From: Nitzschia sp. pyKryTriq1
Taxonomy: Eukaryota > Bacillariophyta > Bacillariophyceae > Bacillariales > Bacillariaceae
NCBI GenBank assembly: GCA_956465555.1
Contig: OY101119.1
Span: 1,784,629-1,848,628 of the forward strand
Direction of reading: 5' to 3'
DNA length: 64,000 nucleotides
Shown: one piece after another, positions 22,911-27,519 of the stretch
Layout of the letters: every line of letters begins with the position of its first letter
Numbering within the stretch: the stretch's first letter is position 1
Position numbers and translations under genes: made by a program
Notes under the pieces: generated by a model
Database searches by the model: none
Told to the model about the DNA's origin: nothing
What the model saw: only the letters and a program-made list of their open reading frames with translations

Positions 22911-23732
<822 letters not shown>

Positions 23733-24690: not shown

Positions 24691-25383
24691 CTAAAGCTCG
24701 GCCTCAACTGTACCGCCAGCAGCAATGATTTTCTTGAGGATACGCATTCTGCGCCATGCCCACTCCAACAAATCTTCTTTCATTGGTTTTTTCGTCATCG
24801 CTTCCACTCGATCCAGCTGACTCTGCACCTCGTCGAGAGGCTTATCCTTCCACTTCTCCAGATAGCCGGCCTCCTTCTCGTTGCAGTTCTTTCCATCGAG
24901 ACCACAAAGAACTGTGTTTCCGTACTGTTCAACATAATCTATCATGATCATCCGATCCAATAGTTCTTGGCACATTGGTAAGTCGGTGACCTTTTTGTAG
25001 GCGTCACCAAACTGCCCCGACTTCTTGTTGAACCAACGGATTGTGGGCCAGCCGCCCGATCCCGGATTCCCCAATTCATCGCCCTTCAACATTGGACTCT
25101 CCTGAAGATTGATGTCCGCAAAGGCGACATCCGAGTTCCCTTCAAACATGCGCGTCACGTCGTTCCATGACGGCGCCTGCTTGCGTCATCAGCCTCATCC
25201 TTCCGAGGCGATCCAACGAACAAAAACGGTCTTGTCCTTTTCGATCTGCTCATCGACGTAATCGAGGAGAAGCCCGTAGTCGGTGATTTTCTCGACACGA
25301 TCGAAATGACCTTCTGGGTAAAAGCTACCGTAAGCCACGGAGGCCAGGGCCAAGAGACCGAGGGCCAACACTCGGAATACCAT
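24691..25383 (-). CDS. PDI-like ER selenoprotein with U-G-U-U active site (three in-frame UGA)
   Basis: Read through three UGA codons, this is a 230-residue thioredoxin-fold protein ending at UAG. An ATG at 25383 starts a clear signal peptide (MVFRVLALGLLALASVAYG). The domain core KTVFVRWIASEG leads directly to UGA-GGC-UGA-UGA (25197-25186), then RKQAPSWNDV. This is the spacing of PDI (W-C-G-H-C-K-x-x-A-P-x-W), so the CGHC motif is replaced by Sec63-Gly-Sec65-Sec66. Downstream, GGWPTIRWF supplies the cis-proline loop, and the C-terminus (YLEKWKDKP to RMRILKKI) resembles the helical D domain of PDI-D/ERp29. The halves are in the same frame with no indel. Alternative: a 45-nt intron at 25221-25177 (GTTCGT...AAGCAG), which would delete the core strand and be shorter than every other intron here (64-296 bp). 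No SECIS was found by eye. Confidence 0.8.
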
Positions 25384-27519
25384 GGCAGGCTGTCTGTATT
25401 GATATTGCACCAGGTACTTCGCCTCTGCTGAAATGAAGACGACGGGCACAATGACCCTTTCTTATTCGATCTTCGAGGAGGAGGAAGGAGGAGTCGAGGT
25501 CGAGGATCGAGGAGTGAGATCGCGACACCGCTACTCGTACCTGGTACCGGTACCAGGTACTGGTACCGCAACACCACCTGCTTCTTGATTATGGTCCGCA
25601 CTACTACCGGTACTGTACTCTAGTAATAAATAACCACTGCGCTATCAGTGCGCCGGCCGATCATTAGTAAATAATGGAGCCGCAGTGGTCTTGCACCCGA
25701 AGGCAGTATCTCCACGATCCGTCCCCGCAAAGACCCCGGGCTGCACAGACAGTGTCACCGGATTGTCCTTTTTTCAATTAGTTTTTATACGTCAACGAAG
25801 CTCACGATATTTGTTGCGCTGGCAGGTACGCGTTTTCGGCGAGTAACGATATACAGACATGATATTATTGCAATGATCCCGACATGGGAATTTCAGACAT
25901 TTAACGAAGCTTCACCCGTTGAGATCGCACCGTTCGACCGCGACCGTTGAGAGATACATACAGATACTGTACCTTGTACTGTGCCGATACTCGTACCTGT
26001 ACGGTACTGTACTGGTACCGGTACAGTAGGTCAGTTGTGTCGTTGAGATGAACTCCGTTGTAATGGAAAGAACCCGGATATACAATTTTAACGAGCCCGG
26101 ATATAATTTTTTGTTAAATTAACAAAAAATTTATTCTATCTGTTAGATTATTATAATAAAACAAACAGGAAATTGCTGAAAGAGGCATTGCCTAAAATTC
26201 AAAAGCTCGTGTCTCCATACAGTGACGAGGTGTCTATTGTCCAAAATAAATTCGTTGTCCAGCCAAAAAAGGTATAAATTAAAGGCAGCTACGTATGTAA
26301 TTTTTTGTCAATTTAACAAAATATTTCATCCGATGTACAAGATTATATTTCATTTTTCCTCGTCGGTCAATGTATGCGACTAATATGACTTTCTTTCTTC
26401 TACCTTCCGCCCAAATCCGTCTTTTATTTGGCAGAGCCACCAATTATGCTACAAGAATCTCTGTCCTTCTGTCCCCACTGCGGCGTGAGGGGTGGTACCA
26501 ATGTCGGAGACACATACATCCTTCCCAGTACGTCAACCCCCACCTCTCGCGCTCAGCGACGACGCACTTTTAGTGCTACTTGTATACATGTCATATTTTT
26601 TTTCGTGCTCTGCGTGTGGCCCACCTCTATTTTGCTCCACAAAACGACTTCTTTGACTGCACTCCCCGATTGCCCAATCCAACAATCAACAATCAACAAT
26701 CAACACCAAGCAACATTGTGCATCATCATCATCATCATCACCCTCAGACCACAACGGAAAATGGGATGAATCATTACCAAAACTGTTTAGCCGGGTGATC
26801 TTTAATCGTTTGGTGTACTCGTTCGTACTCATTCCACTATGGCGTTCCCCTGTAGGTTCTTTTTGTTATAGGTTTCTTTTTAATGCCGTATTCGTTTACA
26901 AGCATTTTGGAGTCAAAAAGGGTTTTGTGACGCTGGAGGAGCGCTTCAAGCTGGTTGGCCTGTTCTCAAGTCAATCCTTTTGTATCAGTGGCCACTTGTT
27001 TCAAGTCAGCCATTTTATATTTTGTATTGGTCACTCTCTTGGCTGTTGCTTTCTTGCTTGGCGGATCGGCCGTGAGCCATTTGCGATGACTGGCAGGCGT
27101 CCGATCCTCCGGGCGACAATTCAATCTCCGTCTGTCCGTCCCATCAAGCTCGCAACGGGGACAGAAAGTAAGTAGACGGAGTTTCATGAAACAGACGTTA
27201 AGAGGACGTTGTTAAATACCCTAATACAGGCATATATGAGCGTTCTGTCTTTGACTTGTTTTATCGATGCTATCCCACAAGGTGATTCCGTTTTACGGCG
27301 ACTGGCGATAGAAAGCGAAAATACATAGGACATCCATTTCATAATTTAGGATAATACTAATATGTTCCAACCGTTGGAGCGTTGGCCATCATGATCCTCA
27401 GATTTTGTGAAGCATGAAGAATGATCCTTTCCAACTCTTCTCTCCTGCCCTTCCGTAACAGACCAGACACACTTTGTACCCTAGACTACTATAGACGCCA
27501 CTTCGTACTCTAAGCGACC
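25384..27519. other. Long intergenic region, AT-rich repeats
   Basis: Over 2 kb without a supportable gene. The first 650 bp are GTAC-rich with TACCGGTA at 25545, 25605 and 26016, upstream of the PDI-like gene. An AT-rich block (26070-26350) carries a 47-bp imperfect direct repeat. ATCAACA repeats lie at about 26686-26708, followed by CATCAT repeats. Open frames around 26430-27175 have no domain signal and are not called. Confidence 0.5.
26105..26346. repeat. AT-rich direct repeat pair (26105-26151 and 26299-26346)
   Basis: Two copies of about 47 bp share AATTTTTTGT, TTAACAAAA and GATTAT in the same order with a few substitutions, 194 bp apart. The first contains a palindrome, TTTTTTGTTAAATTAACAAA. 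Just upstream, CCCGGATATA also occurs twice (about 26074 and 26096). It may be the remnant of a small non-autonomous element. Confidence 0.6.

Follow-up and report, generated by a model that had tools for sequence, protein, structure and literature searches.

We find that a gene on the minus strand of a 64,000-nucleotide stretch of Nitzschia sp. pyKryTriq1 DNA (contig OY101119.1; hereafter the window) is, in all likelihood, a PDI_e selenoprotein with a Sec-Gly-Sec-Sec active site, in which three UGA codons would be read by the ordinary selenocysteine (Sec) machinery with the help of an RNA stem-loop behind them (Table 1). The tri-Sec family itself is already known: in the parts of the original description used here (Jiang et al. 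2020, BMC Genomics 21:699, PMC7539508), PDI_e comprises 12 genes from 10 algae, mainly haptophytes and members of the SAR group, carries three neighbouring Sec residues as GUGUU, is documented by EST alignments and predicted SECIS elements in several organisms, and is presented as the first case of a selenoprotein in which two Sec stand side by side; it was the only paper naming PDI_e as a selenoprotein in the open-access literature covered. Our addition is a predicted strong hairpin behind the UGAs, of a kind that recurs in Sec genes of the same genome. A preliminary description of the locus expected such a density of Sec to be unusual, whereas the 2020 publication gives it a precedent; its central reading of a tri-Sec PDI-like protein is very probably right, given the motif shared with PDI_e (PMC7539508) and the presence in this genome of tRNA-Sec, SepSecS and other UGA-containing genes.

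Table 1. Features of the PDI_e locus and of other loci discussed in the text. Positions without a locus handle are those of the window.
Feature	Locus	Position	Strand	Basis or remark
PDI_e coding sequence		24691..25383	-	230 codons + TAG
UGA-Gly-UGA-UGA (codons 63-66), where PDI has its CGHC active site		25186..25197	-	frame; alignment with UGHC and CGHS paralogues
16-bp RNA stem-loop, SRE-like, starting 2 nt after the last UGA		25143..25183	-	predicted folding
Weak SECIS candidate, +86 after the stop: ATGA, stem, AAA bulge, 4-bp mini-stem, TGAA		24559..24605	-	
Paper intron, 45 nt, GT..AG, frame kept		25177..25221	-	judged not real; donor GTTCGT 4/6, active site lost
Histone H4 frame		23421-23732	+	by eye
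Frame recalling a retrotransposon polyprotein		26837-27187	-	by eye only
UGHC PDI paralogue	L003	genome C2:991.6-992.4 kb	-	UGA at Sec place
FKBP-like frame adjoining a piece of PDI_e-type C-terminal domain, end TNEL	L004	1468-2286	-	FKBP-like frame by eye
Tandem pair of tRNA-Sec genes	L006	1501-1748	+	
UGYC PDI	L069	1983-1033	-	UGA at Sec place
SELENOT type	L018			UGA at Sec place
GPX	L021, L022, L023			UGA at Sec place
SELENOM/SELENOF type	L024			UGA at Sec place
SELENOU types	L056, L057, L058			UGA at Sec place
MsrA	L072, L073			UGA at Sec place

The PDI_e frame begins with an ATG at 25383 and ends with a TAG at 24693-24691, and the only in-frame stops before this terminator are exactly three TGAs (25197-25195, 25191-25189 and 25188-25186; codons 63, 65 and 66), after which the frame stays open for 164 codons; in each of the remaining five frames, these 693 nt contain 3 to 11 stops, and no intron is needed within the gene. 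The frame check confirms two earlier statements about the locus, that two same-frame halves are split only by the three UGAs and that the terminator is UAG with no indel to be invoked. With UGA read as U, the protein runs SEG-U-G-U-U-RKQAPSW at the position of the PDI motif CGHC, and the flanks, likewise proposed at the outset to align with PDI, do so both with TXNDC5/PDI domains and, ungapped across the motif, with two paralogues. The alignment to TXNDC5 (8eky_M) crosses the motif with a whole-sequence E-value of 6.6e-11, summed over domains, the best single-domain i-Evalue being 0.015; the Pfam Thioredoxin model scores 22.7 bits, just below its cut-off of 23.5; and a W-P-T downstream of the motif resembles the cis-proline loop in the alignment with the paralogues. 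The domain order is an N-terminal hydrophobic stretch, a thioredoxin-like domain and a C-terminal domain of about 60 residues ending in EAEL, where we take the N-terminus to be signal-peptide-like and the terminus to be of the xxEL type, as judged by eye from general rules. The product is probably a secreted or ER-resident oxidoreductase, a compartment and a redox function that these features suggest, and all three UGAs are probably decoded as Sec. The gene lies tail to tail with the histone H4 frame of the window, with about 960 bp between the two stop codons.

Compared by motif and description, the Nitzschia protein and published PDI_e are both algal and PDI-like, with a thioredoxin-like fold, recognized here by sequence only, and three neighbouring UGAs that yield GUGUU at the PDI active site (PMC7539508). 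The match in motif and domain makes the Nitzschia gene a good member of the known family, with a new testable element in addition; it differs in having a weak SECIS candidate and a post-UGA stem-loop, which we did not find described in the consulted parts of that paper. Scans of IMG/VR, phage records and GTDB contigs returned no relatives.

When the genome (40.65 Mb, 20 contigs) was searched with the PDI_e protein, three further places were found (L002, L003 and L004); we joined the exons of L002 and L003 at GT-AG sites. The active-site motifs of PDI_e, L003 and L002 align as UGUU, UGHC and CGHS with no gap inside: L003 reads W-U-G-H-C-K across an intron (its two introns measure 126 and 85 nt), while the L002 sequence is W-C-G-H-S and its only assigned intron has 69 nt. 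In L003 the end of the first intron directly precedes the Sec codon. All three proteins have the C-terminal domain in common, and it occurs again in L004; C160, C167, K170, K177, K179, R192, M201, L205, W208, R212 and I215 are invariant in the four-sequence alignment, and against Pfam the domain reached no family at cut-off, with a sub-threshold match of L003 to DUF2497 (E 0.0064). On these sequence grounds, the UGUU, UGHC and CGHS members and their common C-terminal domain make PDI_e part of a local family whose members carry no Sec, one Sec or three. The L004 piece adjoins an FKBP-like frame, so that the domain may be common to different folding enzymes. As a query, the L003 protein gave 22 genome matches, many of them thioredoxin-domain genes. 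The UGHC paralogue recalls EhSEP2 of Emiliania huxleyi, a PDI-like selenoprotein whose single thioredoxin domain carries Sec in a UGHC motif (PMC6254913), and thus one Sec as opposed to the three of Nitzschia PDI_e.

The genome holds the apparatus for Sec incorporation, with a SepSecS gene and three tRNA-Sec genes above the Rfam cut-off, all with anticodon tca; two of these form a tandem pair whose starts lie 161 nt apart, and the third is on another contig. Besides PDI_e, the genome search yielded twelve frames in which a UGA occupies the Sec position of a known family (Table 1), and for these the names given to single loci are our assignments from a Pfam match and known motifs. One of them, the UGYC PDI L069, ends in HVEL; a strong stem-loop follows its UGA, and at +83 it has a SECIS-like stem, with no GAATGA. 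Eight silicon-transporter matches were also recorded in the genome, as befits a diatom.

The 60 nt after the UGAs of PDI_e fold with a predicted energy of -22.7 kcal/mol, against a mean of -10.9 (sd 2.5) for synonymous-codon shuffles, none of 1000 being as stable; over 90 nt, 2 of 1000 such shuffles were as stable, and dinucleotide shuffles of the 90-nt stretch gave z -2.36 (5/200). The post-UGA window is, moreover, the most extreme of 42 in the frame. A predicted stable stem-loop thus lies a few nucleotides downstream of UGA-Sec with a stability beyond coding constraint, as in the selenocysteine redefinition elements (SREs) of the SELENON and SELENOT mRNAs, which in the portion of PMC8704476 used here are likewise RNA structures shortly downstream of UGA-Sec. 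The PDI_e stem-loop probably acts as such an element. In the open-access papers searched, no title or abstract reports SREs or UGA-adjacent stem-loops in diatoms.

The same 60-nt test with synonymous shuffles was applied to 13 Sec sites, and z fell below -1.9 at eight of them (PDI_e, L069, L022, L023, L056, L057, L058 and L073), the remaining five (L003, L018, L021, L024 and L072) lying between -0.5 and +0.6 with no post-UGA stem-loop. A first control on ten Cys sites, chosen by loose motif search and including one in the wrong frame (L050), gave none below -1.9 (Mann-Whitney p 3.6e-4); a better one, restricted to sites inside the family match of thioredoxin and MsrA genes (9 of 38 loci without the motif there were left out), gave 1 of 29 (L033, z -1.93; its near-duplicate L034, -1.89; p 1.4e-3). 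Windows were also ranked within the 11 genes whose coding sequence is unbroken, a set without L003 and L018. The one immediately following Sec comes first in seven of them and second in L073, and stands at 25/35 in L021, 44/70 in L024 and 14/26 in L072; 0.35 first ranks are expected, and the chance of at least seven is 7e-9 under independence of the windows, an assumption that their overlap slightly violates. Averaged over 9-12 genes, the profile is lowest at the codon after Sec (-2.43) and runs from +0.31 to -0.81 beyond four codons from it. This excess of unusually stable stem-loops at Sec over Cys sites suggests that SREs are common in this diatom; compared with those of SELENON and SELENOT, as far as the text used describes them (PMC8704476), the present elements are predicted only, occur in a diatom and at eight of 13 Sec sites, and in PDI_e follow three UGAs. 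Low values also appear in windows that reach the UGA from upstream in L024 (-4.1, at -16 codons) and L018 (-2.5, at -8 codons), and in these two genes the structure may lie on the other side of the UGA.

The SECIS question is less clear-cut. Among 12 Sec genes including PDI_e (L072, whose stop was not located, was left out), ten have a GAATGA 36-134 nt after the stop, the exceptions being PDI_e, with none in the first 1068 nt after its stop, and L069, where a strong ATGAC stem stands at +83 (1/200 shuffles as good). Each of the ten has its best-folding ATGA inside GAATGA; the stem there clearly beats shuffles in L018, L022, L024, L056, L057, L058 and L073 (at most 11/200 as good) and is less distinct in L003 (33/200), L021 (36/200) and L023 (30/200). 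The downstream DNA examined of four related non-Sec genes, L002, L020 (stop not fixed), L059 and L060, has no GAATGA. A downstream minus-strand SECIS search, as proposed at the outset, yielded the weak +86 candidate of Table 1 and nothing convincing. The strictest scan found nothing in PDI_e and, when run on six other Sec genes, gave matches in two, in one case at a distance of 983 nt; a second found nothing in PDI_e and recovered five of the six; and a stem-rule scan found nothing in PDI_e and at least one match in all six. Rfam SECIS_1 matched neither the PDI_e region nor the six Sec loci nor anything else in the whole genome, and its silence on those loci makes it uninformative. In the SECISearch pattern, as given in the part of PMC2375036 used (NTGA, AA/CC and GA, with 10-13 nt from quartet to AA), the spacing is shorter than the 14-15 nt of the PDI_e candidate; patterns of this type are a poor guide here, because four of the six other Sec genes have no match.

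The candidate emerged only with looser scans and was chosen because it has an AAA and a 3' core and lies at the usual distance from the stop. Its fold is equalled by 33 of 200 shuffles, no worse than in the GAATGA genes L003, L021 and L023, the surrounding 86 nt give a fold z of -0.92, and on energy alone it is surpassed at five other positions of the 950-nt 3' region; under the AA rule, something as good arises in 62 of 200 shuffles of the 950 nt and, when only the first 250 nt are shuffled, in 26 of 400. Its 3' arm differs from that of the SECIS-like stem of L069 at 2 of 13 positions (0 of 1500 shuffles as close, five with three differences), a likeness spotted before it was tested and, being post hoc, weak evidence. 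It is possible that this element is the PDI_e SECIS.

The lack of a typical SECIS in the 3' region bears on a different reading, that of a decaying or silent gene whose frame is still open but whose SECIS has degenerated, leaving only a truncated product of 62 residues; the case of Fistulifera solaris, where GUGUU is reported to have been lost (PMC7539508), points the same way. We regard such decay as improbable, since the 164 codons past the UGAs are open, the W-P-T and the C-terminal domain are conserved, and the post-UGA stem-loop is far from chance. That stem-loop could itself stimulate readthrough by near-cognate tRNAs without selenium, as RNA structures beside stop codons do in known cases (PMC8704476, in the part used); yet the UGAs occupy redox positions, the genome has many Sec genes, and the stem-loop is mostly missing at Cys sites of related families, all of which makes this explanation highly improbable. 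Removal of the UGAs by a short intron, of 45 nt or another length, hardly deserves belief: on paper, 59 GT-AG pairs of 40-300 nt would keep the frame, but the best donor among them matches GTAAGT at only four of six positions, whereas the three introns assigned in the paralogues match at 6, 6 and 5 of 6 and are 69-126 nt long, and each of the 59 pairs would delete the active site. The window also contains, by eye only, the retrotransposon-like frame of Table 1.

In the tri-Sec PDI_e reading that we favor, tRNA-Sec and a 3' UTR SECIS, the ordinary eukaryotic machinery, would decode the three UGAs as Sec, and the stem-loop beginning 2 nt after the last of them probably hinders termination, as the SRE of SELENON mRNA does; the resulting protein would attach the C-terminal domain common to the single-Sec and Cys paralogues to one thioredoxin-like domain. 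Tentatively, and as a conjecture that may equally fail, we propose that Sec decoding in this diatom commonly relies on a pair of elements, one being the SECIS of the 3' UTR and the other a stem-loop directly behind the UGA, and that PDI_e, whose SECIS is atypical and whose three UGAs fall within four codons, would depend most on the local stem-loop, a mixed layout that joins the eukaryotic arrangement to the UGA-adjacent one of bacteria.

The chromosome-scale genomic copy of PDI_e, together with its UGHC and CGHS paralogues, offers a setting for studying the step from one to three Sec. The post-UGA stem-loops provide an explanation, open to testing, of how translation could pass three UGAs within four codons without terminating, and the new element may explain how the cluster is read; they also suggest that SREs, described for SELENON and SELENOT in the text used (PMC8704476), are common in a diatom.
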